From Desulfomicrobium baculatum DSM 4028 (GTDB lineage: Bacteria; Desulfobacterota; Desulfovibrionia; Desulfovibrionales; Desulfomicrobiaceae), in NCBI RefSeq assembly GCF_000023225.1, contig NC_013173.1, forward strand, positions 3,040,501-3,104,500: 64,000 nucleotides of DNA. Reading direction: 5' to 3'. The notes beneath the pieces were generated by a model. That model was not told the origin of the DNA. It ran no database searches and was given only the letters and a program-made list of their open reading frames with translations. Each line of letters opens with the position of its first letter. Positions within the stretch are counted from its first letter, which is position 1. The translations under genes and the position numbers were made by a program. Below are positions 20,322 to 58,826 of the stretch, piece by piece.

Positions 20322-20364
20322 CGATCGTCCCCTGTGCCCTGCCTGCTCCGTTTCCGGCTTTTTG

Positions 20365-20452: not shown

Positions 20453-20529
20453 ACATAGCCCGAAATCCCGCCCGTACTCCAGTCTTGATTAAAATCAATT
20501 ATTTCAAACAAGTAGAATTTTTTCAAACA

Positions 20530-30863: not shown

Positions 30864-30947
30864 TCAAGAAAGAGAAACCTGCGAGGGGCCGAACCGTGAA
30901 TGTGCGGATCGGCCCTTCGCCGCGCCCGACAACATGCGAGGAACCTC

Positions 30948-32177: not shown

Positions 32178-32186
32178 GAGCCTCAC

Positions 32187-42053: not shown

Positions 42054-42083
42054 ATTTTCTCCAGCCAGGCCGAGACGCCCGGG

Positions 42084-43088: not shown

Positions 43089-45471
43089 GTTTTTTTCCCA
43101 TTTTTTGTCCACTCAAGCGGGCATTTTCGCTGTGCATGCCGATGACAAGAAGCAGGAGCTGGATCAGCACCGGCCGACACCCGCCCAGCTCGCCCGTGCG
43201 TTTCAATTCCGTGCGGGCTTCGCGCGCGAACTCCATGATGTCCCGTCCGCCGAGCAGCGCGGGGAGCCCGGTACGGCAGAACTGCGCGGGCAGACACCCG
43301 AAATTCTTGACCGTCTCGCAGTCTTCCAGAAGGTAATCGAGGGCTTCGGCAAGATGCGAGCGTCTCAATTCCCCTCTATAGACCTCCTCGGCCCCCATGT
43401 TGAATTCCTGCGCGCGCAGGGCCAGCGGGGTGCGCGCTCCGGCATGCTCCAGAATGCGCCGGGTCAGCTTTCCCCCGGCGCCACGTTCCGGATCCGTGAT
43501 GCGGGCGCGCAGATCGCGCAGAAGATCACCCGCCCCGAAAAGTTCGATCACGTCCCGGCCCTCGGATTCGATGAAATCGAGCAGCGCCATGCGGTACTCC
43601 TGCACATGCACGCGCAGGGTGCCCGGATAGCGATGACTGCCACGGACGCGGGACGCCCTGGATACGAGGTCGAGCAGCAAGGCGTTGCCCGAATCCCGGC
43701 GCACGAAAAAGGTGGGCAGGTTGATGGCCGTGGCAAAAAATATCTGTCGCCGCTCGCTCTCCACTTCCGGACTGTCGGGAATCGAAGACCGGCTGACGCG
43801 GCCGCCGAGCACCAGCTTGCAGGCCAGCGCGCTCAGAAACTGCTGCAGGCGCGCCGCAGGCCGCATGTCCTCTTCCAAAGAATCAAAGAGGCTGTAAAAA
43901 CGGCCCTCGAACCCGGAAAACCCCATCACTTCGAACGAGCGCTGCTTGTAGAGCAGGTAGGTCGACATGGACTCGTGAAAAACGCCCATGGCCGCAAGGT
44001 CGCGCTTCAGCCGCAGGTCGTTGCCGACCTCGCCGTCCAGGGCCGCGCAACGATGGGTGCTCATGAGCGTGGTCATGTAGTCGAGCAGGCGAAAATCCGG
44101 GATGAAGTCGCCGCGCAGGCCAAAAATCCGGGCAATGGTCCTGTCCATCAGCGGCGGGCCGAAGGGGGTCAGGGGGCGGCCACAGACTTTGAGCTTGGCC
44201 TTCTTCTTCCAGCGCCGCCAGATCATGCGCAGGTGGGTGTAATCAAGCTCGTGCGGCAGGAAACCGAGCGCTTTTTCCGGATGGAAATCCTCGAAATCCA
44301 TGCGCATGGGAGCTGCGCTGTAGGTGCCGACAAAAAGCGGCAGAAAATGTTCCACGATCTTGATGACCAGGTCGCCCAGATATTTTTCGTCGGCCGCGCC
44401 GAAATCGCCGCCGCGCATGAGTTCTCCCAAACGCTTGCTGCCAAGGGAGATATGCGTCCCGTTGTTGGCCAGGCAGGTGTTGGAGGTGTTGGGCAGAACG
44501 ACCAGATTGTTGGTCAGGATGCCGGATTCGCGCAGCTTGGCGATGGTGTTCAGCTGACTGCGCGAGAGCATGCGGTGGCACAGGCCCATGTATTCCTTCT
44601 TGGCCTCGCCCCGGTCCCAGCCCGACAGGCACGGGTTCATGAACAGCTCGCGGTAATGGGCGTCGGGGATGATCTCGTTCAGCCGCTTCTGCCGGGCCGG
44701 AGGCAGCGGGGCGAAATAGATCATGGCCCGCTGGCCGTGATCCAGCAGCCCGAACCGTTCATTGGCATGGTCGAGGAGCAGTTGGGACAGCAGGAAACGC
44801 TGGCTGGTTTCCCGGGCGATGCCGCGCCCGCCCTCGAACGCCTCGTTCATGGGCGCGGGATAAAAGGAAAAGGTCTCGGGGGAGGTGTTGTCGTTCAGGA
44901 AATGGCCGAGAAAGGATTCCGCCAGCTTGCGCACCTCGGCGCTCACCCCGGACCCGGCCAGATCGGCCAGGGAGAGCTTCAAAAGATAACTGATGGGGAT
45001 GCGCAGCCAGTCTTCGCCGTCTTTGGCAAAGAAGAAATCCGCGCTGTCTTTCCTGCGCCCGGAGGCCGGATCGCTCTTGTCCGCCAGCAGGTCCCGCTCC
45101 AGGGTGTGGCGGGCAAAGGAGTTCAGCCGGGTCAAGGGAAAGCGCACCCAGCTGTTTTCCCAGACCGCGTCAGGCCCGGCCTGCAGATAGCGTTCAAGCT
45201 CAAGCAGGGTGTGGCTCGAGGTATCCCCGGCCACGGTGCGCCGGGCCACATTCTGGTAGAAACTCGAATCGCGGATGCGCAGCGGCAGATCGACGGATTC
45301 CGGGCTGCCCATGACCGCGACCTGCAATTCGCTCTCGCTTCCGGCCGTGGCGTCGTCAGGGCCAAAAGGGAGCAGGTCCACCAGGCGGTCGTTCCAGACA
45401 CCTTCGAATCCCATCTTCCCGGCCAACCGCCCTTCCATGCCCGCCTGCATCATTGTCGTATCGAATAACAT
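43066..45471 (-). CDS. Large (801-residue) protein of unknown family heading a Pho-linked operon
   Basis: No signal peptide and no clear membrane segment, apart from a C-terminal hydrophobic stretch VLIQLLLLVIGMH. Notable stretches are NLVVLPNTSNTCLANNG, MRMDFEDFHPEKALGFLP, RRWKKKAKLKVCGRPLTPFG and a Cys-containing KNFGCLPAQFCRTGLP. I do not recognise a family. ATG at 45471 has AAGGTGG upstream. It precedes the decarboxylase-like gene by overlap and has Pho-box hexamers upstream, so it is probably a PhoB-induced enzyme or scaffold acting with lipid-type proteins. Confidence 0.8.
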   Translation of the reverse strand: MLFDTTMMQAGMEGRLAGKMGFEGVWNDRLVDLLPFGPDDATAGSESELQVAVMGSPESVDLPLRIRDSSFYQNVARRTVAGDTSSHTLLELERYLQAGPDAVWENSWVRFPLTRLNSFARHTLERDLLADKSDPASGRRKDSADFFFAKDGEDWLRIPISYLLKLSLADLAGSGVSAEVRKLAESFLGHFLNDNTSPETFSFYPAPMNEAFEGGRGIARETSQRFLLSQLLLDHANERFGLLDHGQRAMIYFAPLPPARQKRLNEIIPDAHYRELFMNPCLSGWDRGEAKKEYMGLCHRMLSRSQLNTIAKLRESGILTNNLVVLPNTSNTCLANNGTHISLGSKRLGELMRGGDFGAADEKYLGDLVIKIVEHFLPLFVGTYSAAPMRMDFEDFHPEKALGFLPHELDYTHLRMIWRRWKKKAKLKVCGRPLTPFGPPLMDRTIARIFGLRGDFIPDFRLLDYMTTLMSTHRCAALDGEVGNDLRLKRDLAAMGVFHESMSTYLLYKQRSFEVMGFSGFEGRFYSLFDSLEEDMRPAARLQQFLSALACKLVLGGRVSRSSIPDSPEVESERRQIFFATAINLPTFFVRRDSGNALLLDLVSRASRVRGSHRYPGTLRVHVQEYRMALLDFIESEGRDVIELFGAGDLLRDLRARITDPERGAGGKLTRRILEHAGARTPLALRAQEFNMGAEEVYRGELRRSHLAEALDYLLEDCETVKNFGCLPAQFCRTGLPALLGGRDIMEFAREARTELKRTGELGGCRPVLIQLLLLVIGMHSENARLSGQKMGKKHDASVYS

Positions 45472-45526
45472 GCACACCACCTTGTTTCACTGCCTTGAAC
45501 AGATATATATGAAGGGGATGCGAAGA

Positions 45527-45551
45527 ATCCGTGACCGCACCGTGACAACTT
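45527..45551 (-). promoter_or_regulatory. Pho box for the 801-residue-protein operon
   Basis: On the minus strand TGTCAC (45542-45547) and GGTCAC (45531-45536) are 11 bp apart, 60-75 bp before the start codon. Two repeats are clear; further repeats are degenerate. Confidence 0.55.
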
Positions 45552-45580
45552 TGCCAGCCCTTCGGGGTGGACGACCAGGA

Positions 45581-45609
45581 CTGTCACCCAAACGTCACCG
45601 CGCTGTCAC
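45581..45609 (+). promoter_or_regulatory. Pho box for dedA
   Basis: CTGTCAC, ACGTCAC and CTGTCAC occur at 45581, 45592 and 45603, in exact 11-bp register, 34-60 bp before the dedA start. Confidence 0.7.
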
Positions 45610-45642
45610 GGACATGCGCGAGGCTCACGGCAAGGAAGGGTC

Positions 45643-46191
45643 ATGGAGATGAACACCATTGCCCAATACGGTCCTTTGGCCATCGCGCTGGGCGCTTTCG
45701 TGGAAGGGGAGACGGCGGTGCTTCTGGGCGGGGCGGGCCTGGCGCTGGGGCTGTTCGATTTCTGGACCGTGGTGGGGGCGGCCTTTGCAGGCAGCATGGC
45801 CGGAGATCAATTCTTTTTCTGGCTCGGCAGGCTCAAAGGGGCCGCCTATCTTGCGGGGCATCCGCGCTTCGGGGCCAAGGTCGCCCGCGTCGGCAGCCTG
45901 CTGCTGCGCCACCGCCTGCCGCTCCTTGGCACCTACCGGTTCATCTACGGCATGCGCGGGGTCATCCCCTTTGCCTTTGGCGTGTCGGACCTCTGCTGGC
46001 GCTTCTTTCTTGCCGCCAACCTGTTCACGGCAACGCTATGGTCGCTCCTCATCACCCTGCTCGGGCTTCATGCCGGAAAATTCCTGACCGATCCGACTGT
46101 CGTCGCAAGGCTGCCCCTGTTCGGCGCGGGCGCTGCCCTGCTTTTCGGGCTGGGGATGCTGGTGCGCGGACGCTTCAAGGCCCGGCCCTGA
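45643..46191 (+). CDS. DedA-family membrane protein
   Basis: The 182-residue protein has four to five hydrophobic segments and family motifs FVEGETAVLLGGAGLALG, AGSMAGDQFFFWLGR and RFIYGMRGVIPFAFG. DedA proteins move polyprenyl phosphates or phospholipids across the membrane in the members studied. GGAAGGG precedes the ATG. It faces away from the 801-residue-protein operon and has its own Pho box. Confidence 0.88.
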   Translation: MEMNTIAQYGPLAIALGAFVEGETAVLLGGAGLALGLFDFWTVVGAAFAGSMAGDQFFFWLGRLKGAAYLAGHPRFGAKVARVGSLLLRHRLPLLGTYRFIYGMRGVIPFAFGVSDLCWRFFLAANLFTATLWSLLITLLGLHAGKFLTDPTVVARLPLFGAGAALLFGLGMLVRGRFKARP

Positions 46192-46238
46192 ACGCGGCGG
46201 GTCTGCCGGGTTCCGGGCCATCGACGCAGGATGGAGGT

Positions 46239-47510
46239 TCAGGACGCGACCTCCGGGGAGACAACAAGCGCGGGCGCGGCCTGCGGTGGCGCGAAGCGCG
46301 CCAGTTTTTCCGTACGCATGGGCTTGGTGCCGTCAAAGAAATCGCAGGCCATGTAGTAGCGCAGGTCGGAAAACCAGATGCCGGGCAGATCCGGGCGGGA
46401 CGAGAACCTGCGCATAACCTCCAGCGGGTTGGAGAGTGCCATCCCGAAAGGACCGAGCAACTCGGACGGGTCGCGGAAGCATTCCCATTCGCAGCGCCGA
46501 CAGACCGGCTCGCCGCCCGGCAAATCCGTAAGCTCCCAGAAAGGGCCGAGGTCCTCCGCACTGCGGTAGCCGCACGGATAGGCATGCCCGGCCGTGGCAT
46601 CCACGAAAAAGAAGTCCAGACCTCCGCGACAGGCGTACGTTTGCCCGGCTTCCCCTTCGGTCTGCCGCACAAGGGCGTCCAGTGAGGACAGCGGCGTGAA
46701 GAGGCGAATGCGCGACCTGAAGTCCGGCACGACATCCTTGAGCGCCAGCAACATGGCCCTTTTCTCCTCGGGGCTGAAACGGATGAAGGAGTCCGAGGAT
46801 GTGGCCTGGTAAACGGCACGATCTTCGTCACTCATGGGATAGCAACAATTGGCGATGGTGAAGCCAAGGTTCGTCGCAAACGTGAAAAAGCGCGTAAAGG
46901 CCTCGAAAAAGCCCTGCCGAAATCCGTGCGTATCAAAAGGACCGTGCAAGGCCGGAATGTGGCCACCGCAAAGGCGGTTGATACCCAGGTTGACCGAAGG
47001 GTAAAGGCCGCTGTTGTGAAAAATGGGCAACGCCTTGGCCATGCCCCTCACCACGCCGGGCAGGCCCCGGTTTGTCTCGTGGATGTCCGGGTCGCTGGAA
47101 TCGAGGCTGATCCAGAAATTGCGGATGCCGCTCTCAAGCAATTCATCGGCCGTGCGGCGCATGCGGTCCTCAAAATCCGGGGCCTCGTGGCGCTGAAAGA
47201 TAAAGCCGTTGGTGCCGGTGCGAATGTACGGAATACCGAGTTTTTTGGCGCTGCGGATCATGCCGGTCAGGCGCGGCAGGTCAAGCAGAGGCTCCCCGCC
47301 GGTGAACGAAACGGCCTGCATGCCAAGCCTGGCCACAGTATCGAGAATACGGTCCACGACCTCCGGGTCGAGACTGTGACGGGCAAAGGAATGATCGACG
47401 CTCATGCCGCATTGCACGCACCGCGCATTGCAGCGGGTCGTGATCTGAATCACGGCCTGGCCGGGCAGACGGCCACGGAACAGGGCGCGGCAGGTGGAAA
47501 GAAACTTCAT
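46239..47510 (-). CDS. Radical SAM/SPASM-like enzyme ending the GAK operon
   Basis: The 423-residue protein has CNARCVQC (Cx3Cx2C) at about residues 26-33 for the SAM-linked cluster, FTGGEPLL and a C-terminal cysteine set (ACRGG, YPCGYR, CRRCEWEC) suggesting extra iron-sulfur clusters as in SPASM proteins. The substrate is unknown. ATG at 47510 has AGGAG seven bases upstream, better than the TTG at 47516. It is 47 bp after the HU-like gene on the same strand, so it is probably part of the operon. Confidence 0.82.
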   Translation of the reverse strand: MKFLSTCRALFRGRLPGQAVIQITTRCNARCVQCGMSVDHSFARHSLDPEVVDRILDTVARLGMQAVSFTGGEPLLDLPRLTGMIRSAKKLGIPYIRTGTNGFIFQRHEAPDFEDRMRRTADELLESGIRNFWISLDSSDPDIHETNRGLPGVVRGMAKALPIFHNSGLYPSVNLGINRLCGGHIPALHGPFDTHGFRQGFFEAFTRFFTFATNLGFTIANCCYPMSDEDRAVYQATSSDSFIRFSPEEKRAMLLALKDVVPDFRSRIRLFTPLSSLDALVRQTEGEAGQTYACRGGLDFFFVDATAGHAYPCGYRSAEDLGPFWELTDLPGGEPVCRRCEWECFRDPSELLGPFGMALSNPLEVMRRFSSRPDLPGIWFSDLRYYMACDFFDGTKPMRTEKLARFAPPQAAPALVVSPEVAS

Positions 47511-47557
47511 ATACAAACTCCTGTGACCCTAAAGCCCTTTACATTCCGGACCCGGGC

Positions 47558-47887
47558 TCACGGATTGAGAAGCTCCCGGAGCCCCTTGCACGTCTTGAAA
47601 TGAATCCTCCGGCGAGCCGGAATGGCGATGGTTTCCCCGGTGCGCGGGTTCCGCCCCATGCGCGCGGCATGGAGCATCACGGAAAAGGAACCAAGTCCAG
47701 GCAAAGAGATTCCCTGGCCTTTGGCCAGGGCTTCGCGGATCACCGCGTAGAAGGCCTTTTGGGGGGAAGAATGGGTCGTTTGGGACGTATGGGCTACAGG
47801 GAGCTCCGCATTTCCATAGGTCCCATTCTTCTCATCTTCTTCCACCCCCACCTCTTCCGTCAGCTCATTTTTTTTTTGCTTCGTCAC
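47558..47887 (-). CDS. HU/IHF-family DNA-binding-like protein with an unusual N-terminus
   Basis: The 109-residue protein has the HU C-terminal half: AKGQGISLPGLGSFSVML and GRNPRTGETIAIPARRRIHFK, including the DNA-intercalating NP. The N-terminal helical part is replaced or interrupted by an acidic and Thr/Ser-rich stretch of about 35 residues. The only start is GTG at 47887, overlapping the amphi-Trp gene by 23 bp, or an inner GTG at about 47851. It may bend DNA or serve as a regulator of the operon. Confidence 0.65.
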   Translation of the reverse strand: MTKQKKNELTEEVGVEEDEKNGTYGNAELPVAHTSQTTHSSPQKAFYAVIREALAKGQGISLPGLGSFSVMLHAARMGRNPRTGETIAIPARRRIHFKTCKGLRELLNP

Positions 47888-48176
47888 CCAGCGGACTCGA
47901 AGGCAAAACCGGGGCTTCCAGTTGCGTCGCCACCGGGGTCAGCGGCTGCATTTTGTTCGGGACCCAGGAAAGCTTGAGCTCAAGCTTCTCCTTGTCGCTT
48001 TTCTGTTTTATTTCGAGCTCCGCCTCGATGCTGTCCGAAGGCCGCAGGATGAGGGGCCGCTCTTCGTTGTCGAGAATGAGTGTGCCCTGCCTTAGGCCCG
48101 CGAGCACGGTTTCCAGATACGCGACCAGATCATCCCTGGTCATGATGTTCCTTGATTTGAGCTTGTCTTTTCCCAT
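47865..48176 (-). CDS. Amphi-Trp domain protein (GAK operon)
   Basis: The 103-residue protein shows the amphi-Trp layout: a helix (DDLVAYLETVLAGLRQGTLIL), beta strands and a final KLELKLSWV in which Trp closes an amphipathic strand. AAAGGAGG precedes the ATG. Amphi-Trp proteins recur in GAK loci; their molecular role is not known. A second copy lies upstream at 52971. Confidence 0.72.
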   Translation of the reverse strand: MGKDKLKSRNIMTRDDLVAYLETVLAGLRQGTLILDNEERPLILRPSDSIEAELEIKQKSDKEKLELKLSWVPNKMQPLTPVATQLEAPVLPSSPLGDEAKKK

Positions 48177-48195
48177 AAAATCCTCCTTTTAAGTA

Positions 48196-49386
48196 TCACG
48201 CCAGGGATATGAGGGCCTGGCAGAGCAGATGCGGATCGATGACGCCGGTGTTCGTGTCGGTCAGGGGAGTTTTGATGATCTGGATGCCCAGCGAAGCCAG
48301 CTCCCGCTGCGGATTCTTCGTGTCCGGATAGTTCACGGACGGATCAAGCAGGACAAAATCGAGAACATCGCTGATGGCGATGCTGTCCGGGGCGTCGGCC
48401 CGCAGATGACGCAGCAGGGTCCGGACCTGACCCGCCAGAGACAGCCCGATCGATTCGGGGTCTTCGAACGTGTTGGGGATGAACACCTTGGGACAGGGCG
48501 TCTGACTCACGGCCTGCCCGACTCCGCGGGGCAGCAGGTTGGCGACGACGGAGCTGTAAAAGCTGCCCACCGGGTAGCAGATGAGGTCCGCGCCCTGAAT
48601 GGCCCTTCGGATCTTGTCGCGGATGAGCGGACGCACCGGGGCGTTGCCCTTGGCCGGATCGACAAGGGACAGCTCGGACACGGCGCGGGTCAGAGGGGGA
48701 GTGTCCTTGCCGGTCAGCAGATGCTGTCCGACGAGATGCCCCCCGCCCTCCAGCACGGCCCGGAGTTGCAGGTTGGAATTGATCAGCAGGCGAACTTCCC
48801 CTCGCACCTGAACCAGTTTGGAATAGATGTAGACAATGGGGTCGATGTGCCGCCTGTTCTCAAGATACCCGGCGGTCAGGATGAGGTTGCCGACGCTCGC
48901 CCCGCGCAGGTCGAAATCCGGGCCAATGGATTTCTCGAAGAGCTGCAGATGATGGCGGATGATCTTGCGCATGGGATCCGACACCCGGGTGATCAGCGGG
49001 TGACTGCCCCCGACCAGGGCGGAGAGTTCGTCCTGCAGCTGTTCCGGACTGGCGGTCCTCGGCAGGCGGTGGGCAAAAAGCTCGAAAATTTCCGGGTATC
49101 CGTGCAGGGTGCGGTCTGCCAGGGCCATGAGCCGATTGCGCAGGTCGCCCACGGCCGGCATGTCGAAATAGCGGCGCAGCACGGCCGAACTGCCGCCGGA
49201 ATCAAACGGCGTGACCAGATGCACGGAGTTGTGGGTGTATCCGACCAGGGCCTGGCTGGTTTCCTTCAGGGCCGTGCCGCCGGTGAAAAACAGGATTCGC
49301 GGCCCGAGGTCGGGGCTGCGTTGCGCCCTGGCCACGCGCACCGGATCAGGGACATTGACCTCCCGGGTGACCCGTATCGCCGTCAT
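48196..49386 (-). CDS. GAK system CofD-like protein
   Basis: The 396-residue protein has the CofD/YvcK-type N-terminus ILFFTGGTALKETSQAL and TPFDSGGSSAVLRR, then DLRGASVGNLILTAGY and DLICYPVGSFYSSVVANLLP. It belongs to the group called CofD-related protein of the GAK system. True CofD transfers a phospholactyl group; here the reaction is unknown. It overlaps the HprK-related kinase gene by ATGA. Confidence 0.85.
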   Translation of the reverse strand: MTAIRVTREVNVPDPVRVARAQRSPDLGPRILFFTGGTALKETSQALVGYTHNSVHLVTPFDSGGSSAVLRRYFDMPAVGDLRNRLMALADRTLHGYPEIFELFAHRLPRTASPEQLQDELSALVGGSHPLITRVSDPMRKIIRHHLQLFEKSIGPDFDLRGASVGNLILTAGYLENRRHIDPIVYIYSKLVQVRGEVRLLINSNLQLRAVLEGGGHLVGQHLLTGKDTPPLTRAVSELSLVDPAKGNAPVRPLIRDKIRRAIQGADLICYPVGSFYSSVVANLLPRGVGQAVSQTPCPKVFIPNTFEDPESIGLSLAGQVRTLLRHLRADAPDSIAISDVLDFVLLDPSVNYPDTKNPQRELASLGIQIIKTPLTDTNTGVIDPHLLCQALISLA

Positions 49387-50453
49387 GCGCCCTCCAGCAG
49401 ACGCAGGCAGCCGGCGGCGGCCTGGTCAAAGTCCACGCCCCCGCTGATCTCGAAAACCCTGCACCCGCGCAGCGCCCTGGCATAGTCCTCGGCCGTTGGC
49501 GCATAGCCGTTTTCGGCGGCGAAAAAAAGGCCGGTATCCTTCATGAAGGCTTCCAGCAGATCGTGCCGCTCGTTTATGTCGATTTCCCCGATGCGCGTGG
49601 GCGAGCCGTCCCGGTGCCAGTTCAGCAGCACCAGATAGCGCATGGGACACTGCAGGATGAATCGGTCCGGACCAAAGAGCTGGTCGATGAGCGCGTCGTA
49701 TTTATGCTCCAGGCTCCAGAGCTCCTCCGGGGACAGGCTTTGGAACCGCGCCGTGTCCTCGGGAGAGATTATGCCTGTCAGATCGGGATTGTGCAGCGCG
49801 GTGCCGGGATTGATGCGCGGATGCTTGGCCACGCCGAACATGACCGGACCGGGCGTTCCCGGGCTGATCATCAAACGGTCGTTGCTGACAAAGGTCACGC
49901 CCTTGCTGACCAGATGCAGGGCCAGGGTGGACTTGCCCATGCCCGAAAACCCGGCCATGGCCATGCCGGTCTCGCACACGGCCACGCCGGCGGCGTGGGC
50001 GAGGAGGCAGCCGTCGTTCAGCTTGCGCTCGATGAAGCGGTTGTTGATGAAATTGACGACCTGGTTGGGATTGGCTTCGCAGTCGCCCACGGCCAGATTC
50101 TCTCCTTTCCCGAACAGAAAGTGCATGCCGGTCAGGCGCTTGCGGATGACCCGCCCGCCTTCGATGTCGACCCACTCCTCCTTGATCTTGGTCTTGCCCG
50201 GATCCGGCTGTTTGACCTGAAAGGAAAGCCCCAGATCCGGGACCTTAGCCTGCAAAGCCGTGATGGTGATGTCCGCGTTTGCCGCCGACCTCAGAAAGGG
50301 CGCAAAATACGTGGTCAGTTCCCGGGCCAGATTCGCGGAGTTGGTCATGACCCGAAAGCGGCAGTCGCCCATGCTCAGAAAGACCTGATGCGGTGTCGCG
50401 ATTCCGGCGCTCAAGAGACTCACGAGCTTGGCCAGACTGGTATCATCGTTCAC
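49383..50453 (-). CDS. HprK-related kinase B (GAK system)
   Basis: The 356-residue protein has Walker A GFSGMGKST at about 168-176 and the HprK-like HAAGVAV and FVSNDRLMI segments. Family: HprK-related kinase B, the kinase of GAK loci. It probably phosphorylates a protein or small molecule; no HPr protein is encoded nearby. The start is GTG at 50453 with GGAG seven bases upstream, inside the end of the ATP-grasp gene (11-bp overlap), so translation is coupled. The longer open frame to 50675 is rejected. Confidence 0.85.
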   Translation of the reverse strand: MNDDTSLAKLVSLLSAGIATPHQVFLSMGDCRFRVMTNSANLARELTTYFAPFLRSAANADITITALQAKVPDLGLSFQVKQPDPGKTKIKEEWVDIEGGRVIRKRLTGMHFLFGKGENLAVGDCEANPNQVVNFINNRFIERKLNDGCLLAHAAGVAVCETGMAMAGFSGMGKSTLALHLVSKGVTFVSNDRLMISPGTPGPVMFGVAKHPRINPGTALHNPDLTGIISPEDTARFQSLSPEELWSLEHKYDALIDQLFGPDRFILQCPMRYLVLLNWHRDGSPTRIGEIDINERHDLLEAFMKDTGLFFAAENGYAPTAEDYARALRGCRVFEISGGVDFDQAAAGCLRLLEGA

Positions 50454-51315
50454 GAATCTTCTCCATGACGTAATCGGTGTACATGGCCGCCGCATCGAGC
50501 CCGCAGGCATCCTGGATGCCGCGGAACCCGCCGAAGGCGGAAACCTCGAAGACAACCGGGCCAGTGGCCGCTTCCACCACATCGACGCAGGTGAAATCCA
50601 GGTCGAAAAGGGCCTGGGCCTGTTCGGCCGTGCGCAGGGCCTCGGGCGAAGGCGTCGCCGGAGCGTATTTGCCACCCGACTCGGTGGTCGTGTTCCAGGC
50701 CCCGGTGCCGCAGCGGGCGTAGGTGGTCAGATATTTGCCGCCGAGAAAAACAATGCCCAGATCCTGCCCAGGCAGCTCGATCTTCCGCTGCATGTACATG
50801 ATGGGATTTTCCGCGTGGAAAGCCTCAATGGCGAGGCGTGCCCCGGCGCCATGTTCAATGACCGTCATGCCCCGGGCCTTTGACGTGAAAAGCGGTTTGA
50901 AAACGGCCGCGCCGTAGCGCTGCACCGCGCCCAGCGCCTCGTCCACGGATTCGGTGATGGTCGTGGGCGGCATGGGAATGTCTCCCAGGCGCAGGGTCAC
51001 GGTGCAGCTCAGCCGGTCCAGGACCCGCATGATGGACATGGGCGAAGAGAAAATGGGCAGCCCGCGCTGCGCCAGAAAGCGCAGCACCTCAAGCCTGTCG
51101 AGAAGATCCGGGGAATAGCGCGCTCCGATCTTCTTGATGATCAGGCCGTCAAGCCCGCCCAGATCGACTCCCTCGGTCCAAACCTTGCCCGCGTCCAGAT
51201 CCATGCAGACCTGCTCCATATCCACCAGCAGGCGGAATCCGGTCTTGGCGGCCACCGTGTCCGCAAGAAGTTCCGAAGACCACCCGCCGCGCGTACCGAC
51301 CACTCCTATCTTCAT
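50443..51315 (-). CDS. GAK system ATP-grasp enzyme
   Basis: The 290-residue RimK-like ATP-grasp protein begins MKIGVVGTRGGWSSELLAD and has AVFKPLFTSKARGM, ELPGQDLGIVFLGGKYL and VVFEVSAFGGFRGIQDACG, matching the ATP-binding and metal-binding (E-x-N-like region) parts. It would ligate a carboxylate to an amine or thiol. Substrate unknown. It lies 9 bp after the PhoU-kinase fusion gene. Confidence 0.85.
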   Translation of the reverse strand: MKIGVVGTRGGWSSELLADTVAAKTGFRLLVDMEQVCMDLDAGKVWTEGVDLGGLDGLIIKKIGARYSPDLLDRLEVLRFLAQRGLPIFSSPMSIMRVLDRLSCTVTLRLGDIPMPPTTITESVDEALGAVQRYGAAVFKPLFTSKARGMTVIEHGAGARLAIEAFHAENPIMYMQRKIELPGQDLGIVFLGGKYLTTYARCGTGAWNTTTESGGKYAPATPSPEALRTAEQAQALFDLDFTCVDVVEAATGPVVFEVSAFGGFRGIQDACGLDAAAMYTDYVMEKIRER

Positions 51316-51324
51316 AAGCGATTC

Positions 51325-52962
51325 CTAATAGTTAAGTATTTCCAAAGGGAAAGAAAACTGTGCCGGATCCTCCAGTCTGTGCTCCGTGAGCCGCTCCATG
51401 AGGAAGAGGCAACGGTTGTACATGGCGTGGGCAAAGGCCCGGTTCAGCTCGAAGCGGGTCGAGGTGTAGAACGATCTGGCCACCCCGAGTCCAAGACGGA
51501 TGTCGAAGCTCTCGTCACCATGGGCCTTGGCGAACGCCTTGCTGAACTCGTAAAAGCTTCTGATCGTCGCGGTGATCCGTGCGCGCGACTCCCGGTCAAA
51601 GGCGGGCAGCCGGAAATTGGAGACAAGAAACACCGAGACGTCCTGCACGTAGTCGGAATGCTGCGAACGGTGCAGATCAATAAAATACACCTTCTGATCC
51701 AGATGGTTGTAGATGACGTTGTTGATGTTGAAGTCGCCGTGGATGAACACCGAGAATGGCGCGGGATATCTGACTTCGATATCCATGCAACTCCTGATCA
51801 GTCCACCGGCCGAAGGGATGGCCACCGAACCAATGCCCATGGCGGGACGCATCAGGTCCGGATGGACCTGCAGGATGGAGGACATGCGGTCCAGGGCCTG
51901 GCGCATCATGTTCGTCGGCAGGGAGTGCCGGCTCATGGTCTGTTCCCAGACATGCTGAACAGTCTGCTCGAAAATGAACAGGGCGTTCTTGAGAATCTCC
52001 TCGTCCGAATTGAAGATGGCTTCGTCCAGGGTGCAGCCGGACAAGAATTCGGTCAAAAGCGACGCGTTCTCGCCCTCCTCCTGATAGCTGAACACTTTCG
52101 GGACCAGTCCGGGAATGATTTCATTCCAGCATTCCAGATTGATTTTCTCCTGACGGATCTTGCGCAGGTTGCCTTCCTTGAAAATGGAGTCCCGCGCCTG
52201 GGGAGTCTTCTTCCCCTCCACGCGGGCGATGCGGCAGCCCGAGCGCGAGCCCCAGATGCCCTGGAAATCCACATCCGTGACATCCCCCTGCAGGCCCGAT
52301 TTGTTCAGGTTGCGCTGCAGGGCCTTGAACTGCTGGATCTTGATGCGCTCGCCGATGATGACGAAAAGCAGGGCCTCCCCGATGTTGAGCAGGCTATCCC
52401 CGATGCGCTCCATGTAGCGGATGATGAAAAGCGAGGTGATATGGTCCTCCACGTTGCGGCCGATGCGCAAGTGGATCATGATCTTGTCGAAATTCTCCTT
52501 GTACATGAGGTCGAGCTCGTCCTCCATGCGGCAGATGGACAACGCCCCGGACAGATTGGCCTTTTGCAGGACAGGGAGGATCTCGCTGACCGTTTCGTGG
52601 ATTTTGAGAAAACTGTCCTTGTAATCGAAATTTTCCAGAAACCTGTGCGTGGTGAGGTAGCCCATCTGCTTGGCTATGTTCACGCAATAATCGCCGATAC
52701 GCTCCAGATTGATGGTGATGATGTGCACGGCGCGCAGATACTTCATTTGATCCTGACCGAGCCGGGTCTGATTGAGCGTCGTGAAGCATTTGTTTTCAAT
52801 GACGTTCTTCAGATTGTCTATGTAATCGTCCTTGCTGAATATCTTGTCATAGGTGGAGGGCGTCGGCTCCAGCAGAAATTCGAACGTGGCCTTGATCTGG
52901 TTTTGAACTTCCATGATCAGGAACCGGAAATTCTCATCGAGCCCTTCAAAACTTTTGAGCAT
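51325..52962 (-). CDS. PhoU-domain protein fused to an aminoglycoside-phosphotransferase-type kinase
   Basis: The 545-residue protein has two PhoU repeats in residues 1-235, each with ERIGD (about 87-91 and 185-189). A kinase-like domain follows with HGDFNINN (H408, D410, N415) and IDLHR (D429), the catalytic and metal-binding positions of APH-type kinases. The fusion suggests phosphate or PhoR-type signals controlling a small-molecule kinase. It is part of the GAK operon, 8 bp after the amphi-Trp gene. Confidence 0.85.
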   Translation of the reverse strand: MLKSFEGLDENFRFLIMEVQNQIKATFEFLLEPTPSTYDKIFSKDDYIDNLKNVIENKCFTTLNQTRLGQDQMKYLRAVHIITINLERIGDYCVNIAKQMGYLTTHRFLENFDYKDSFLKIHETVSEILPVLQKANLSGALSICRMEDELDLMYKENFDKIMIHLRIGRNVEDHITSLFIIRYMERIGDSLLNIGEALLFVIIGERIKIQQFKALQRNLNKSGLQGDVTDVDFQGIWGSRSGCRIARVEGKKTPQARDSIFKEGNLRKIRQEKINLECWNEIIPGLVPKVFSYQEEGENASLLTEFLSGCTLDEAIFNSDEEILKNALFIFEQTVQHVWEQTMSRHSLPTNMMRQALDRMSSILQVHPDLMRPAMGIGSVAIPSAGGLIRSCMDIEVRYPAPFSVFIHGDFNINNVIYNHLDQKVYFIDLHRSQHSDYVQDVSVFLVSNFRLPAFDRESRARITATIRSFYEFSKAFAKAHGDESFDIRLGLGVARSFYTSTRFELNRAFAHAMYNRCLFLMERLTEHRLEDPAQFSFPLEILNY

Positions 52963-52970
52963 GGCGTGTC

Positions 52971-53240
52971 CTAGGAGGTGATGGAAATTGTGCCGGACGC
53001 CGGGGATTCATCGCTTTTGTCTTTCCAGCCGACCTTGATGGCCAGCTTGTTCTCCGAGCCCTTCTTCTTCACCGACACCTCGAATTTCATGTACCCGCCC
53101 GGATGCAGGCAGATTTCAGACCCCTCGGATTTGAGCACGATCCGCCCCTCGGCAAATCCATCCTGCAAGGCCTGCAGATATTTCTGGATGGTCCGGCTGT
53201 CCTGTACGGACTCGAATTCGAATTTATCGTCTTGAGACAT
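52971..53240 (-). CDS. Amphi-Trp domain protein (second copy)
   Basis: The 89-residue protein has a helix (QDSRTIQKYLQALQDGFAEG) followed by beta strands and ends in KLAIKVGWK, the amphi-Trp layout. It differs in sequence from the copy at 47865. It lies 15 bp after the PHP-like gene and 8 bp before the PhoU-kinase gene, so it is operonic. Function unknown. Confidence 0.75.
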   Translation of the reverse strand: MSQDDKFEFESVQDSRTIQKYLQALQDGFAEGRIVLKSEGSEICLHPGGYMKFEVSVKKKGSENKLAIKVGWKDKSDESPASGTISITS

Positions 53241-53255
53241 GAGTATTCCTTTTTT

Positions 53256-54395
53256 TCAGCCCAGCAGGCGTTCGCGATATTCGCGGATGACGATTTCCCG
53301 GCTCATGCCCGAAAGGATGAGCCGCTTGGAGATCTCCAGGTCATCCCAGGCCGGTTGATAGCCAATCTCCCGATTCGCCTTTTCCACATTTTGCGACGTG
53401 ATGGTTTTGACTTTCTCACCCATGTGGGTGTCGTCGCCCATGAAGACCAGTTTGCGGCGTGTGGACGGACCCGCGCAGGCATTGGCCCGGCCCACGGCCG
53501 CAATCAGAAAATCCGTGTAACGCTGCGACTGGGGGTTCCAGACCTCGTACCCGTCGACGTCGTAGTCGGCCAGCAGGATGGGCCAGAACTGCTCCGGGTG
53601 GGGGATGATGATTCCTCCGCCAAGAGCCCGGGCTTCCTCGATGACCTCGGAAGTGCGATAGAAATAGCGCAGGGAAAAGTGGGTTTTGACAATGGCCTTG
53701 ACCGCCGACAGATAGGTCTGGATACGGTCGATGAGTTCGCCGTCATAGAACGGACGCAGGGCGTCGAAATAGTTGCGCAGCAGCTTGTTCTTGAGAGCGT
53801 CCGGGGACAGGCCGGCGTGTCTGTCCTCGACCATGCGCCGCACCTTGGTCACATGGTGCCGCACGAATTCGACCAGATCCAGATCCGCCCCGGTCTCCCG
53901 CGCAGCCTGTTCGATGCGGTCTTCCAGCGGAGCGGTGATGGCGTGCATGAAATCGAAAAGCTGCGACGCCCGGTAGGTCTGGGTATGGCGAAGCATGGCG
54001 CGCAACGTATGGGCGTGCTCCAGGCGGGATGTCTGGAAATGGAGCAGCAACTGCACCTTCTGGTTGAAGCCGTGGGAGTAGCAGTCCACCTCCACGCCGC
54101 TGAAATTTCCGTACTCCAGGATCTCGTTGTGCTGGGTCGGGATGATCAAATTCTCGGTCATGCCTGGGAACATGTTGTGAACGCGTTGCGTAATGACCGG
54201 CATGGGCACGAATTCCGGATGCCAGTGTACGGCCATGACGCTTTGCTGGTCGGGGAGGACACGCTGCGGGGAGGCCAGCGCCGCCAACGTTTCTTCGCTG
54301 AGATTCGTGCTGGTCACGGATTCGAACACGGCGAGATCCCGCTCGTTGATAGCCGGATCCCAGGCCGCGGGATTCATTGGGTCGGATGAACGCAT
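53256..54395 (-). CDS. PHP-like metal-dependent hydrolase candidate
   Basis: The 379-residue soluble protein has metal-ligand-like segments in the order VMAVHWHPEF, LIIPTQHNEI, GVEVDCYSHGF, GGGIIIPHPE, DGYEVWNPQ and VFMGDDTHMGE, which resemble those of PHP-superfamily phosphoesterases. I infer the fold from this pattern; catalytic function is not shown. The ATG at 54395 follows the XXXCH gene by 9 bp with AGG upstream; an inner ATG at 54377 is also possible. Confidence 0.65.
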   Translation of the reverse strand: MRSSDPMNPAAWDPAINERDLAVFESVTSTNLSEETLAALASPQRVLPDQQSVMAVHWHPEFVPMPVITQRVHNMFPGMTENLIIPTQHNEILEYGNFSGVEVDCYSHGFNQKVQLLLHFQTSRLEHAHTLRAMLRHTQTYRASQLFDFMHAITAPLEDRIEQAARETGADLDLVEFVRHHVTKVRRMVEDRHAGLSPDALKNKLLRNYFDALRPFYDGELIDRIQTYLSAVKAIVKTHFSLRYFYRTSEVIEEARALGGGIIIPHPEQFWPILLADYDVDGYEVWNPQSQRYTDFLIAAVGRANACAGPSTRRKLVFMGDDTHMGEKVKTITSQNVEKANREIGYQPAWDDLEISKRLILSGMSREIVIREYRERLLG

Positions 54396-54404
54396 TGGCA
54401 AAAC

Positions 54405-54938
54405 CTATTTGTAGCGGTCGTGGCAGGATTTCTTGGCCTGGGCCAGTTCTTCGACCACCGCGGCCGTTGCGGCCTGGTCCTCGTGGTCGAAGGACGCGCG
54501 CAGACGCTCGCAAATTTCCGCATACGCAGGATAAAAGTCGTCACCGTATCCATGATACGAAATCATCTTTTCGGAATCCGAGAGGAAAACCGAGACTATT
54601 TCACGCGAAGGCATCTCGCCGCGGGCAACGCTTTCACGGATGGCCTTGAAATAGATCTGCATCCTCTTCTTGAGCTTCGAATAACTCTCGCACACGACGC
54701 CCGACCCGCACGGATCGTCGGCTCCGCAGACTTTCAGGCCCTTGCCCGTGAATTTCACTTCCAGCGCATCGTCCTGTCCCAGATCAACCTTGACCTTGAA
54801 CTTGACCAGTTCCGCAAGGCTGATCCCGTATTCGCTTAGGTCATCGGACTCCTGCTCCAGGGTATCCGCCAATTTGCGCAACAGGTCCGCGGCTTCGGCG
54901 CGTGAGAGCAGCCAATTGTGTTTCAGTTTCGATGCCAT
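54405..54938 (-). CDS. GAK system XXXCH protein
   Basis: The 177-residue protein has a start matching the amphi-Trp-like layout (LLSRAEAADLLRKLADTLEQ), a KFKVKVDL strand, a Cys-rich middle (VCGADDPCGSGVVC) and a C-terminus KKSCHDRYK, the CH motif that gives XXXCH proteins their name. It is the first gene after the Pho box of the GAK operon. Role unknown; the CH motif suggests metal or haem binding. Confidence 0.75.
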   Translation of the reverse strand: MASKLKHNWLLSRAEAADLLRKLADTLEQESDDLSEYGISLAELVKFKVKVDLGQDDALEVKFTGKGLKVCGADDPCGSGVVCESYSKLKKRMQIYFKAIRESVARGEMPSREIVSVFLSDSEKMISYHGYGDDFYPAYAEICERLRASFDHEDQAATAAVVEELAQAKKSCHDRYK

Positions 54939-55011
54939 GCAATCTTCCTTGGTGAAAAGTAATATGGAAATGCTGATTTTCTCTGTTAACAGGGCCGCAA
55001 AGTCAATTCTC

Positions 55012-55046
55012 TTACTGTGACATTTGCGTCACAGTTCCGTGACAGA
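55012..55046 (-). promoter_or_regulatory. Pho box upstream of the GAK operon
   Basis: On the minus strand TGTCAC, TGTGAC and TGTCAC occupy 55039-55044, 55028-55033 and 55017-55022, in exact 11-bp register, about 80 bp before the first start codon. It may also serve the divergent PHP-glycosyltransferase gene. Confidence 0.7.
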
Positions 55047-55155
55047 CTACTCCTGGACCAACATGATTCCAAAATATTTATGAAATTGCCATGCAAGCGT
55101 AACAGTAATGACGCCAGCGCGGGATAGCGTGCGCAAACCACAAAGAGGTATGCAC

Positions 55156-57567
55156 ATGATCACACAACGCAAAGCGGACATGCATGTCCATTCCAAATTT
55201 TCCAGCAGACCATCGCAATGGATTTTGCAAAAACTTGGCTGTCCGGAAAGCTTCACGGAACCCGCATTCATTTATGAACAGGCCAAAGCGGCGGGCATGG
55301 ATTTTGTCACCATCACCGATCACAACGTCATCGATGGAGGACTGCGCATTGCCCACCTGCCGGGAGTTTTTTTAAGCGAGGAGGTGACCACCTACTTCCC
55401 GGAGGACCGCTGCAAGCTGCATGTCCTGGTCTACGGCATCACCGAGACGCAGCACGGGGAAATTCAGCGCCTGCGCGAAAATGTCTATGATCTGTGCGGC
55501 TACCTGCGCAGGGAAGGTTTGGTGCATGCGCTGGCCCATCCTCTGTTCGCGGTCAACGACAAGCTCGGCATCGACCATTTCGAACAGAGCCTGCTCCTCT
55601 TTGACGTCTTTGAATTGAACGGCTGTCGTGACGAAATGCAGAACACGGTCCTACGGTCGATCCTGGCGGATCTGGACCGGATCACGATGGAAATCCTGGC
55701 CGATCGGCACGGACTGGAACCGCTGGGGTGCACGCCCTGGAAAAAAGGATTGATCGGGGGCTCCGACGACCATTCCAGCCTCAACATCGCAAGCATGCAC
55801 ACCCTGGCCGAAGCGAACGGTCTGGATGATTTTCTCGGTGCGGTGCGCGGTGGGCGGGCGCTGCCGTCCGGTCGCGCGGCCACCGGACATGCCCTGGCGC
55901 GAAATCTCTACGCCATAGCCTACCAATTCTACCGCGCCAGGACCAAACGTTCGCGCTCCAAAATGCTCTGCATGCAGTTCGCCGACCACATGCTCGGTGC
56001 CGGTGAAACGTCCGGAGACGGCATTCTGGCCCGCCTGCACGCGGCCATCGGCACGCGCAAAAGCAGCACCTATCTGCGCCTGGCCGACGCCGACGGGATC
56101 AAGGCCGCACTCTTGAAAGAGGTGACCCGCATCATCGAGAACGACCCCACATTCACGGCCATCGCCAAGGGAGAACCGGGCGCGGACTTTGACCAGGAGT
56201 GGTTCCGCTGCGTCGGCCAGGCCTCGGACAAGCTCATCGCCACATTTCTGGACCGGCTGCTCACCAGCGCCATCGGCGCGGACATCTTCGACATTTTCAG
56301 CACCATCGGCACTGCCGGGTCGCTGTACGCCCTCTTGGCCCCGTACTTCGTGTCTTTCGGGCTCTTTGCCCGTGAACGGTCATTCAGCCGAAAATGCGCC
56401 AGAGCTTTCGGACAGGCGAGGCCAAGGCCGCTTACGCTCCTGCATTTCACAGATACGTTCGAAGACGTGAACGGCGTCTCACGGACCATCCGGCAGCAAC
56501 TGGACATGGCTTTGGAGCACGGCAAAGACATGACCGTGATCACCTGCGGACAAGGAGATAACGCACCGGGGATCAAGGTCTTCGACCCCATTGGCACGTT
56601 CGCCATGCCCGAGTATCCGGAGCTTTCCATATCGTACCCACCCTTCTTGCGCATGCTTGAGTACGCCCTGGAAACGGACGCAAAGCTCATTCTGGCCGCC
56701 ACGCCCGGACCTGTCGGCCTCGCCGCGCTGGCCATCAGCAAGATTCTGCAGATCCCCATCCACGGCACCTACCACACCGCCTTCCCCCAGTATGTCGCGT
56801 CCCTGACCGGCGATTCTGGCCTGACAGACCTGACCCGCAAGTTCATGGCATGGTATTACAAGCAGATGGACGTGGTTTATGCCCCCTCCTCGGCCATCGC
56901 CGAGGAATTGACGACCTTCGGCGTGGACCGCAAGGCCATCCGGGTATACCCGCGCGGGGTGGACACAGCGCGCTTTGATCCGATCAAACGAAACGGCTTT
57001 TACAAACCCTGGTCAGGCATGGACTCTTTCAAGCTGATCTATGTTGGACGGGTTTCCAGGGAAAAGGACCTGGACATCCTGGCAGCGGCCTACAAAAGCG
57101 CGATCTCGCGGATGAACGGACACGACGTGCAACTCGTCATTGTCGGAGATGGCCCGTACCGGACGGAAATGGAGAACGAGCTCCTCGGATTGCCCGCGCT
57201 CTTCACCGGAGTGCTGCATGGCGAAGCATTGGCAGCGGCCTATGCCTCGGCGGATCTTTTTGTCTTTCCGTCGACCACGGACACATTCGGCAATGTGGTG
57301 CTGGAGGCCCAGGCATCGGGGCTACCGGTTATTGTCAGCGACAGGGGCGGACCCATGGAAAACATCGATCCCGGCAAAACGGGCCTCGTCGTTCCCGGCC
57401 GGGACGCGGACAGTCTGGCCCAGGCCATGATCGAGCTGTGCGCCGATCCGCGCCGCGTCAAGCACATGGGTGAAGCGGCACGCGTTTTTGCCGAAGAGCG
57501 CAGCTTCGGCTCCGCGTTTCTGGCCACCTGGGAACTCTACAAAGACGCCGCCCCGCCCGCCGCGTGA
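55156..57567 (+). CDS. PHP-domain/GT4-family glycosyltransferase fusion
   Basis: The 803-residue protein has an N-terminal PHP phosphoesterase domain (DMHVHSKFS, TITDHNVIDG, HALAHPLF, GSDDHSS; about 1-230). A helical linker follows, then a GT4 glycosyltransferase (about 415-795) with DVNGVSRTIRQQ, YHTAFPQYV, YPRGVDTARF, YVGRVSREKDLD and SDLF-type ASADLFVFPSTTDTFGNVVLEA. The latter resembles SqdX/MgtA-type lipid glycosyltransferases. ATG at 55156 has GAGG seven bases upstream. It is divergent from the GAK operon and probably Pho-controlled. Confidence 0.88.
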   Translation: MITQRKADMHVHSKFSSRPSQWILQKLGCPESFTEPAFIYEQAKAAGMDFVTITDHNVIDGGLRIAHLPGVFLSEEVTTYFPEDRCKLHVLVYGITETQHGEIQRLRENVYDLCGYLRREGLVHALAHPLFAVNDKLGIDHFEQSLLLFDVFELNGCRDEMQNTVLRSILADLDRITMEILADRHGLEPLGCTPWKKGLIGGSDDHSSLNIASMHTLAEANGLDDFLGAVRGGRALPSGRAATGHALARNLYAIAYQFYRARTKRSRSKMLCMQFADHMLGAGETSGDGILARLHAAIGTRKSSTYLRLADADGIKAALLKEVTRIIENDPTFTAIAKGEPGADFDQEWFRCVGQASDKLIATFLDRLLTSAIGADIFDIFSTIGTAGSLYALLAPYFVSFGLFARERSFSRKCARAFGQARPRPLTLLHFTDTFEDVNGVSRTIRQQLDMALEHGKDMTVITCGQGDNAPGIKVFDPIGTFAMPEYPELSISYPPFLRMLEYALETDAKLILAATPGPVGLAALAISKILQIPIHGTYHTAFPQYVASLTGDSGLTDLTRKFMAWYYKQMDVVYAPSSAIAEELTTFGVDRKAIRVYPRGVDTARFDPIKRNGFYKPWSGMDSFKLIYVGRVSREKDLDILAAAYKSAISRMNGHDVQLVIVGDGPYRTEMENELLGLPALFTGVLHGEALAAAYASADLFVFPSTTDTFGNVVLEAQASGLPVIVSDRGGPMENIDPGKTGLVVPGRDADSLAQAMIELCADPRRVKHMGEAARVFAEERSFGSAFLATWELYKDAAPPAA

Positions 57568-57638
57568 GGGAACGCACGGCAGACGGGGCGGACACGTTGG
57601 CAGGAAAAAAAATCCGGACCATGCGGCCCGGTCATGGA

Positions 57639-58826
57639 TCAAAGCCCGGTCTTGATGACCATGTCCGTGATCGGGCCGCGCGAGCGTTCGCCCTTGAGCA
57701 CGATGTGGCCGTAGCCCGGAAGGCCTTTGAGCATTTTGACGGTCCAGTTCAGGCCGTTGTTGGACTCGTTCAGGTAGGGGTTGTCGACCTGACGCGTGTC
57801 GCCGAGGCAGATGCATTTCACGTTCTCGCCCATGCGGGTCAAAAGCGCCCTTGTTTCGGCGCGTGAGAGGTTCTGCATCTCGTCGATGATGACCACGGCG
57901 TTTTCGAGGTTCATGCCACGGATAAAGGCGATGGGCAGGATCTCGAAGCGTTTGGGATTGAAGCGGAAATTGCCGCTCTCGCTGTCGGCGAAGATGCGGT
58001 TGGCCGGGCGCAGGTCGTGCAGTTTCATGAGCAGGTCCCCGACGTAGCGCACATAGGGGGCCATCTTCTCCTCCAGATCGCCGGGCAGGTAGCCGAGCTT
58101 GGCGCCAATCTCGATGACCGGCTTGACGAGGTAGATCTTGCGGTACGGGTTGTCCTTCTTCTCCAGGGCCATGAACAGGGCGGCGGCCAGGGCCAGGAAG
58201 GTCTTGCCGTAGCCTGCCTCGGACTGGATGGTGACCAGGTTCACGGCATCGTCGAGCAGAAGCTCCAGAGCCAGGTTCTGATAGACATTGCGCGGACGCA
58301 CGTTCCAGACGTTGTGCTGAAAGTCGATGACGCGGGGCCCGGAGGTGGCGTGCATGTATGGCTGGCCGCCGATCCAGGCGAAACTGTTGGGGATGGGCTC
58401 CTCGCCTTCGCGCACAAAGCCGGTGTAGGACTGGGATTCGGAGCGGAACGGGTTGGAATCGCGGAACCCTTCGCTGGCGATGGCGTGGATGCGGGCCTTG
58501 AGCTGCAGGATGCGGTCGTTGGTGACCAGAATGGGCGCATCCACGCCGCTGTCTTTGAGTTCATCAAGGATCAGTTCGTCGCCGTTCTTGCTCTCCGCGT
58601 CCGTGAAAATCCGGGGCGGAAGGAACTGGATATCCGGGTCGTCCTGCAGCGCAGCAATGGCCTGGGCCACGATATGGGCCACGCGCGGCTCGCGCTTGAG
58701 CTTGTCCAGCTCCCGCAGGACGGTGTACGGCAGGATGACCCGGTTCTCCTGGCCGTTGCGCAGAGCGCGGATGCATTGAGGGTTGTCAATGAGCACATTG
58801 GTGTCGAGTACGTAATTCTTCTGCAT
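57639..58826 (-). CDS. PIN-PhoH family protein
   Basis: The 395-residue protein has an N-terminal PIN ribonuclease-type domain (YVLDTNVLIDNP; about 1-130) and a C-terminal PhoH ATPase (Walker A EAGYGKT, Walker B VVIIDEMQN; about 170-385). This is the PhoH2/YlaK layout, proposed to unwind and cut RNA. It is not preceded by a visible Pho box here, so its phosphate link rests on the family name and location. Confidence 0.92.
   Translation of the reverse strand: MQKNYVLDTNVLIDNPQCIRALRNGQENRVILPYTVLRELDKLKREPRVAHIVAQAIAALQDDPDIQFLPPRIFTDAESKNGDELILDELKDSGVDAPILVTNDRILQLKARIHAIASEGFRDSNPFRSESQSYTGFVREGEEPIPNSFAWIGGQPYMHATSGPRVIDFQHNVWNVRPRNVYQNLALELLLDDAVNLVTIQSEAGYGKTFLALAAALFMALEKKDNPYRKIYLVKPVIEIGAKLGYLPGDLEEKMAPYVRYVGDLLMKLHDLRPANRIFADSESGNFRFNPKRFEILPIAFIRGMNLENAVVIIDEMQNLSRAETRALLTRMGENVKCICLGDTRQVDNPYLNESNNGLNWTVKMLKGLPGYGHIVLKGERSRGPITDMVIKTGL

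Follow-up and report, generated by a model that had tools for sequence, protein, structure and literature searches.

The subject of this analysis is a ten-gene operon carrying the GAK protein families in Desulfomicrobium baculatum DSM 4028, whose 3.94 Mb genome is a single contig. The window, i.e. the whole stretch of DNA that was analysed, is 64 kb long (3040501-3104500 of that contig), and all coordinates below are positions within it. The genes are tightly packed on the minus strand at 46239-54938 and are listed in the order of transcription, from 54938 down to 46239.

54405-54938, minus strand: XXXCH protein, N-terminal amphi-Trp domain and predicted C-terminal four-helix bundle ending in CHxxYK (TIGR04358, 116.5 bits; TIGR04354, 34.4 bits)
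53256-54401, minus strand: predicted divergent PHP-family phosphoesterase, core GAK gene (assigned from fold and invariant residues)
52971-53240, minus strand: amphi-Trp protein 1 (TIGR04354, 72.6 bits)
51325-52962, minus strand: PhoU domain fused to an APH-type kinase, core GAK gene (PF01895, 91 bits; EcKL/APH matches)
50443-51315, minus strand: GAK ATP-grasp ligase, RimK/MptN-like, core GAK gene (TIGR04356, 452 bits)
49383-50453, minus strand: HprK-related kinase B (HprK-B), GTG start (TIGR04355, 580 bits)
48196-49386, minus strand: CofD/YvcK-like protein (TIGR04357, 543 bits)
47865-48176, minus strand: amphi-Trp protein 2 (TIGR04354, 63.8 bits)
47558-47887, minus strand: HU/IHF-like DNA-binding protein (PF00216, 70.7 bits, profile positions 26-90)
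46239-47516, minus strand: radical SAM protein of no specific family (PF04055, 55 bits)

The positions and close spacing described in an initial annotation of this DNA were recovered from the coordinates. The gaps are 3 bp (XXXCH-PHP), 15 bp (PHP-amphi-Trp 1), 8 bp (amphi-Trp 1-PhoU-kinase), 9 bp (PhoU-kinase-ATP-grasp), 19 bp (CofD-amphi-Trp 2) and 41 bp (HU-radical SAM); the ATP-grasp and HprK-B genes overlap by 11 bp (HprK-B GTG start at 50453), HprK-B and CofD by 4 bp, and amphi-Trp 2 and HU by 23 bp. All five NCBIfam GAK families (TIGR04354-TIGR04358) are present within the one operon, each above its curated cut-off, as had also been claimed. The rounded scores in bits, with cut-offs in brackets, are 452 (300) for TIGR04356, 580 (200) for TIGR04355, 543 (340) for TIGR04357, 73 and 64 (31) for the two TIGR04354 proteins and 117 (40) for TIGR04358; the XXXCH protein matches TIGR04354 as well, through an amphi-Trp domain at its N-terminus that scores 34 bits (cut-off 31). 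No RNA families were found in 42000-58000.

The sets used for comparison include 101 genomes of the order, a sample of 297 genomes of the phylum, 79 well-flanked GAK loci and 96 loci for the tally of gene content. Among the 101 genomes the ATP-grasp protein scored over its cut-off in 52, and the PhoU-kinase was found in the same 52 plus one that holds an ATP-grasp fragment at a contig end. The PHP-like gene occurs in exactly the same 53 genomes, and HprK-B in 43, all inside this set. The co-occurrence of the core genes holds where they are split between loci (g17, g21). GAK presence is patchy even within the genus (8 of 16 genomes), so the co-occurrence is not simple shared ancestry. In the phylum sample all 20 genomes with the ATP-grasp protein also have the PhoU-kinase. 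Judged by gene presence, the obligate trio in Desulfovibrionales is thus PHP, PhoU-kinase and ATP-grasp, and the notion that these three core enzymes work together is well supported. The inclusion of the PhoU-kinase in GAK loci had been put forward with a refutation condition set beforehand and was borne out: the gene adjoins GAK in 76 of the 79 well-flanked loci and occupies the same genomes as ATP-grasp. The description of the operon as the complete set that defines GAK loci stood in part. The five named families are indeed present; that set leaves the PhoU-kinase and PHP genes out of the core, CofD is not GAK-specific and the HU and radical SAM genes are specific to the genus.

The PhoU-kinase consists of two PhoU repeats (residues about 6-206) followed by an APH-type kinase (about 240-460). 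The PhoU domain is present (PF01895, 91 bits), and the PhoU equivalog TIGR02135 was not reached (89.5 bits versus a cut-off of 130.25). In the kinase, the loop HGDxNxxN and D429 are invariant (36-90 sequences), which covers H408, G409, D410 and N415 as well as the metal-binding Asp, D429, further along the chain.

The PHP-like protein gave no Pfam or NCBIfam PHP match, and a profile search of the PDB with its alignment gave no sequence match. Its AlphaFold (AF2) model has a predicted local distance difference test score (pLDDT) of 87.7, and the only Foldseek matches at E of 0.001 or below are three PHP structures, with probability 1.00. The expected metal ligands (HxH, H91, E104, H121, H268, DDxH) are invariant in 50 sequences. 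The product is predicted to be a divergent PHP phosphoesterase on account of its fold and residues, not of a sequence family. In alpha- and gammaproteobacterial loci the PHP gene is absent and a metallophosphoesterase gene is found instead, usually with a histidine phosphatase and often with a NUDIX protein. Among the well-flanked loci PHP alone is found in 43, metallophosphoesterase alone in 26 and the two together in none; that one enzyme stands in for a non-homologous other argues for phosphoester hydrolysis as a required step.

The ATP-grasp protein matches RimK structures and has MptN as its second-best family match (130 bits, below cut-off). D245 and E257 are invariant. The RimK-type ligase family TIGR00768 was not reached (91.6 bits versus a cut-off of 143.4), and the E-x-N metal site is not intact, Ser replacing the Asn that is the usual third metal ligand in 96 of 104 sequences.

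The regulatory features of the window are as follows.

55017-55044, minus strand: Pho box made up of three TGTnAC half-sites at 11-bp spacing, in the promoter region that the divergent PHP-glycosyltransferase gene has in common with the GAK operon
55108-57567, plus strand: divergent PHP plus GT4 glycosyltransferase (PF13692/PF00534/PF13439; PHP-like N-terminus read from sequence)
9971-10666, minus strand: phoB (best match TIGR02154, 234 bits, below the cut-off of 296), Pho box at 10747-10764
29847-33347, plus strand: pstS-pstC-pstA (TIGR02136, TIGR02138, TIGR00974), Pho box at 29734-29751

Three hexamers in 11-bp register had been reported upstream of the first GAK gene, and they were located at 55017-55044, reading CTGTCACGGAACTGTGACGCAAATGTCACAG on the minus strand. 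The triple TGTnAC pattern occurs once in the genome and not at all in the reversed control. Independently of the window, a simple position weight matrix (PWM) was made from Escherichia coli Pho boxes. Its top three independent sites in the 64 kb are the phoB promoter (10747, 19.0 bits), pstS (29734, 18.5 bits) and the GAK site (55028, 17.6 bits); since phoB, phoR and pstSCA lie in the same window, this ranking carries its own positive controls. The GAK hexamers agree with the PhoB half-site of Desulfovibrio vulgaris, (c/t)GTnAC, obtained by DNA-affinity-purified-chip (DAP-chip) analysis (PMC3333781).

The intergenic box is kept in seven Desulfomicrobium genomes. In most of 12 Marinomonas loci the PhoU-kinase gene has a Pho box at -72 to -75, which is followed by a TATAGT-like -10 element. 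When upstream regions were scanned with the matrix, 23 of 88 from GAK loci reached 16 bits; so did 8 of 456 background regions, and 3 of 88 when the matrix was reversed. Three of the eight background regions themselves precede metallophosphoesterase genes of GAK loci in Marinomonas. As the species are related and hence not independent, the 23 amount to two well-sampled lineages and a few single genera rather than 23 events. Open-reading-frame calls gave some wrong starts in GC-rich loci and so misplaced some upstream regions in this 88-locus scan (e.g. L031, L099); these regions were checked by hand in the footprint comparison. In five other loci (L038, L069, L089, L107, L112) GAK has pst, phoU or phoBR genes no more than about 10 kb away, directly upstream in the last two. 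The Marinomonas CofD-like gene is located away from GAK, downstream of the operon for glycerol-3-phosphate uptake, ugpBAECQ, at a distance of a few genes at most.

The unique triple box, its rank with the matrix, the Desulfomicrobium footprint and the Marinomonas boxes extend the support for Pho control, originally read from the window, beyond it. We strongly infer from these sites that the operon belongs behind the PhoB switch and would be induced in low phosphate. The suggested survey of GAK loci showed upstream boxes in Desulfomicrobium and in most Marinomonas loci and no recognisable box in many others.

GAK is probably a phosphate-starvation module: a PhoB-induced, PhoU-gated kinase-ligase-phosphatase system that acts with amphi-Trp proteins. 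In low phosphate, judging from the conserved sites, PhoB would bind the triple box and activate the operon together with the divergently transcribed PHP-glycosyltransferase gene. The PhoU domain may plausibly read phosphate or Pst-transport status and gate the fused kinase. Kinase, ligase and phosphoesterase would then act in turn on one substrate, presumably to phosphorylate, ligate and dephosphorylate it in this order. The amphi-Trp proteins would be non-catalytic and serve as carrier, substrate or adaptor, and HprK-B, a helper in most genomes, would add a second reversible phosphorylation. In alpha- and gammaproteobacteria the PHP step would be taken by the unrelated metallophosphoesterase with the histidine phosphatase. 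A wider formulation is tentative: GAK may be a new branch of the phosphate-starvation response across Desulfobacterota and Alpha- and Gammaproteobacteria, in which a PhoU-gated kinase, an ATP-grasp ligase and an exchangeable phosphoesterase make and remove a new phosphorylated or ligated modification, on amphi-Trp carriers or as a soluble messenger, the sulfate-reducer version having a cytoplasmic cytochrome c'-like sensor.

Several observations weigh against a phosphate-starvation module of this kind. The PhoU metal-motif residues are kept in only about two thirds of the sequences, which makes gating by PhoU uncertain, and ligase activity is likewise in doubt with Ser in place of Asn at the metal site of the ATP-grasp protein. 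Neither type of phosphoesterase is linked in 10 of the 79 well-flanked loci, and two genomes of the phylum sample have a weaker PhoU-kinase match without ATP-grasp. Many GAK loci have no recognisable Pho box; with these loci and the mildly raised reversed-matrix control, phosphate control may be lineage-specific. A loose two-hexamer pattern is not significant alone (18 occurrences genome-wide versus 17 in the control) and was dropped as evidence, the control being equally frequent.

The GAK proteins could instead form a small-molecule pathway that makes a phosphate-sparing or phosphate-buffering compound (a phosphorus-free head group, an osmolyte, or a metabolite that can be stored in phosphorylated or ligated form). 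The YvcK-like protein and the glycosyltransferase next to the operon would tie it in part to the supply of UDP-sugars; we regard this as possible, at rather less than even odds. Small molecules are common substrates of APH kinases and of RimK/MptN-like ligases. The divergent PHP-GT4 gene on the same Pho box and the likeness of the CofD-like protein to YvcK fit as well, as do the phospholipid genes (phosphatidylserine decarboxylase, LGT-like, DedA) that stand next door behind another Pho box. Under phosphorus limitation Desulfovibrio alaskensis replaces phospholipids by glycolipids (PMC5193443), a switch in keeping with such a pathway. Against it, the PHP-GT4 gene is linked to GAK (within 8.5 kb) in only 12 of the 79 loci. 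The amphi-Trp proteins, found in nearly all GAK loci, suggest a protein carrier or substrate, and HprK-type kinases are best known for protein substrates.

Of similar, limited plausibility is a signalling module built on a reversible phospho-signal, either a modified amphi-Trp protein or a soluble messenger that the kinase makes and the phosphatases destroy. Such a signal would link Pst/PhoU status to the metabolism of carbon and of the envelope, and the YvcK-like protein would be an output. The fusion of a PhoU domain to a kinase, the presence of an HprK-type kinase and the occurrence of several phosphatases in a locus (PHP, or metallophosphoesterase, histidine phosphatase and NUDIX) argue for the module. 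So does the CofD-like protein, whose gene stands apart in many relatives; in genus g17 the HprK-B and CofD-like genes are separated by pta and ackA. An ATP-grasp ligase in the obligate core would, however, be unusual for a phospho-signal.

It is very improbable that, as in F420 synthesis, the CofD-like protein and the RimK/MptN-like ligase extend a cofactor by a phospho-acyl and glutamyl tail. The MptN match and the presence of a CofD superfamily protein in the operon speak for it, but the ligase is without the usual metal-site Asn and no cofactor gene is nearby. The CofD-like protein itself weakens this reading, being YvcK-like and widespread: YvcK/UPF0052 are its nearest solved structures (YvcK TIGR01826 was not reached, 102.8 bits versus a cut-off of 196), and the family is present in 85 of the 101 relatives, about 33 of them without GAK. 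That the hexamers are the site of another regulator, e.g. a CRP/FNR/HcpR-type palindrome (TGTGA-TCACA), is hardly credible: the half-sites can also be read as TGTGA...TCACA, but the arms are 8 bp apart where CRP-type sites usually have 6 bp, a register of 11 bp is that of PhoB, phoB and pstS have the same motif in front of them, and the Marinomonas box is a TGTCA direct repeat with a -10 element downstream.

In loci without GAK the CofD-like gene often has housekeeping neighbours, and this together with its distribution points to a general protein recruited to GAK. Its identification with DVU3031 of the lactate operon was considered and is wrong, that gene being called pta-N in the published account. 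In one Marinomonas locus (L164, genome G105) the CofD-like gene is broken up over three frames, in-frame TGA stops are reported, and the rest of GAK is kept. HprK-B did not reach the HPr kinase/phosphorylase family TIGR00679 (31 bits, cut-off 240); its Walker A motif GxGKST and NDR are kept in 78-80 of 80 sequences.

The AF2 model of the XXXCH protein has a pLDDT of 76, rising above 80 through its four-helix bundle. The best Foldseek neighbours are nearly all cytochrome c', with probability 1.00 but an E value of only 0.017. The sequence has CHxxYK where cytochrome c' has CxxCH, so that the first haem Cys is absent and only CH is retained; binding of haem by this domain is offered as a suggestion only. 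By eye, a variable linker in the amphi-Trp proteins leads to a short hydrophobic motif at the very end, L/P-x-I/V-x, which might be a strand or a site of modification. The HU-like protein begins with an unrelated N-terminus and resembles HU/IHF over positions 26-90 only. Its gene was found in 8 of the 96 loci and the radical SAM gene in 7, both only in Desulfomicrobium; by this distribution the two are genus-specific passengers outside the core. A role in anti-phage defence was rejected: PADLOC gave only generic similarity of the radical SAM protein to viperins, and the ATP-grasp gene is in no phage record.

The NCBIfam GAK set has the same five families as this operon, and the same genes are annotated on Rhodobacterales plasmids. 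It omits the PhoU-kinase and the PHP or metallophosphoesterase genes that track ATP-grasp, and the present operon adds HU and radical SAM. Like the Pho regulon of D. vulgaris and E. coli, the operon has the PhoB half-site in 11-bp register, and phoBR and pst lie with it in the 64 kb; GAK is not among the described members of that regulon, and the box here is predicted from sequence. The PhoU-kinase shares the two repeats of PhoU and differs by its APH-type kinase fusion. The GAK ligase is of the same ATP-grasp fold family as the RimK/MptN alpha-glutamate ligases, with EVNxxPG becoming EVSAFGG. HprK-B shares the P-loop kinase core and the following Asp with HPr kinase/phosphorylase, but no HPr target is known for it. 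The structures closest to the CofD-like protein are those of the UDP-N-acetylglucosamine-binding YvcK/GlmR of the CofD superfamily, but it belongs to its own subfamily, TIGR04357. Like cytochrome c', the XXXCH domain may fold as a four-helix bundle, with CHxxYK near the C-terminus, but it sits behind an amphi-Trp domain and has no apparent signal peptide. No papers on GAK, amphi-Trp or HprK-related kinase were found in an open library of 5.39 million papers, subscription papers being outside the scope of the search. For GAK, the phosphate link, the redefined core and the assignment of folds are apparently new.

GAK has so far consisted of curated family names with no function, and phosphate limitation is now the first concrete condition under which to test it. 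The PhoU-kinase, PHP and ATP-grasp genes are the first candidates for such tests, and GAK keeps the same company of phosphate genes in distant lineages. The direct output of PhoU is still debated, and the PhoU-kinase bears on how PhoU can act through an attached enzyme.

GAK is spread over Desulfobacterota and Alpha- and Gammaproteobacteria. According to RefSeq annotation, complete plasmid cassettes with the same metallophosphoesterase-type gene order occur in the Rhodobacterales Qingshengfaniella, Tritonibacter and Pseudooceanicola. One genome (G047) has two GAK loci 53 kb apart (L089, L090), one of them without a PHP gene and beside pst genes and a PHP-glycosyltransferase. Another (G093) has a second mini-locus, L177, of XXXCH, CofD-like and amphi-Trp genes without ATP-grasp or PhoU-kinase, near a PHP-glycosyltransferase match. 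Neighbours of GAK include a cation P-type ATPase gene, and those of the CofD-like gene two CNNM/CorC (divalent-cation) genes in tubeworm-symbiont genomes (loci L118, L119; L053-L058, L083).

Downstream of the operon, Pho-like half-sites at 45531-45609, including TGTCAC-N5-CGTCAC-N5-TGTCAC at about 45582-45609, separate a DedA/VTT gene (45643-46191, plus strand) from a gene for an 804-residue protein without a family match (43066-45480, minus strand). The region 41022-45480 holds the latter together with phosphatidylserine decarboxylase (42084-43112) and LGT-like diacylglyceryl transferase (41022-42053) genes, and all three also adjoin GAK in a more distant locus, L037. The adjoining lipid genes in the two loci suggest Pho-controlled lipid remodelling. 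Elsewhere in the window, the Pho box at 10747 is common to phoB and a divergent EAL/GGDEF gene (10925-13186), possibly a link between phosphate and cyclic di-GMP. A further open reading frame on the minus strand (18294-20498, start provisional) encodes two domains: a response-regulator receiver at about 175-295 and a Lon protease domain at about 293-721.

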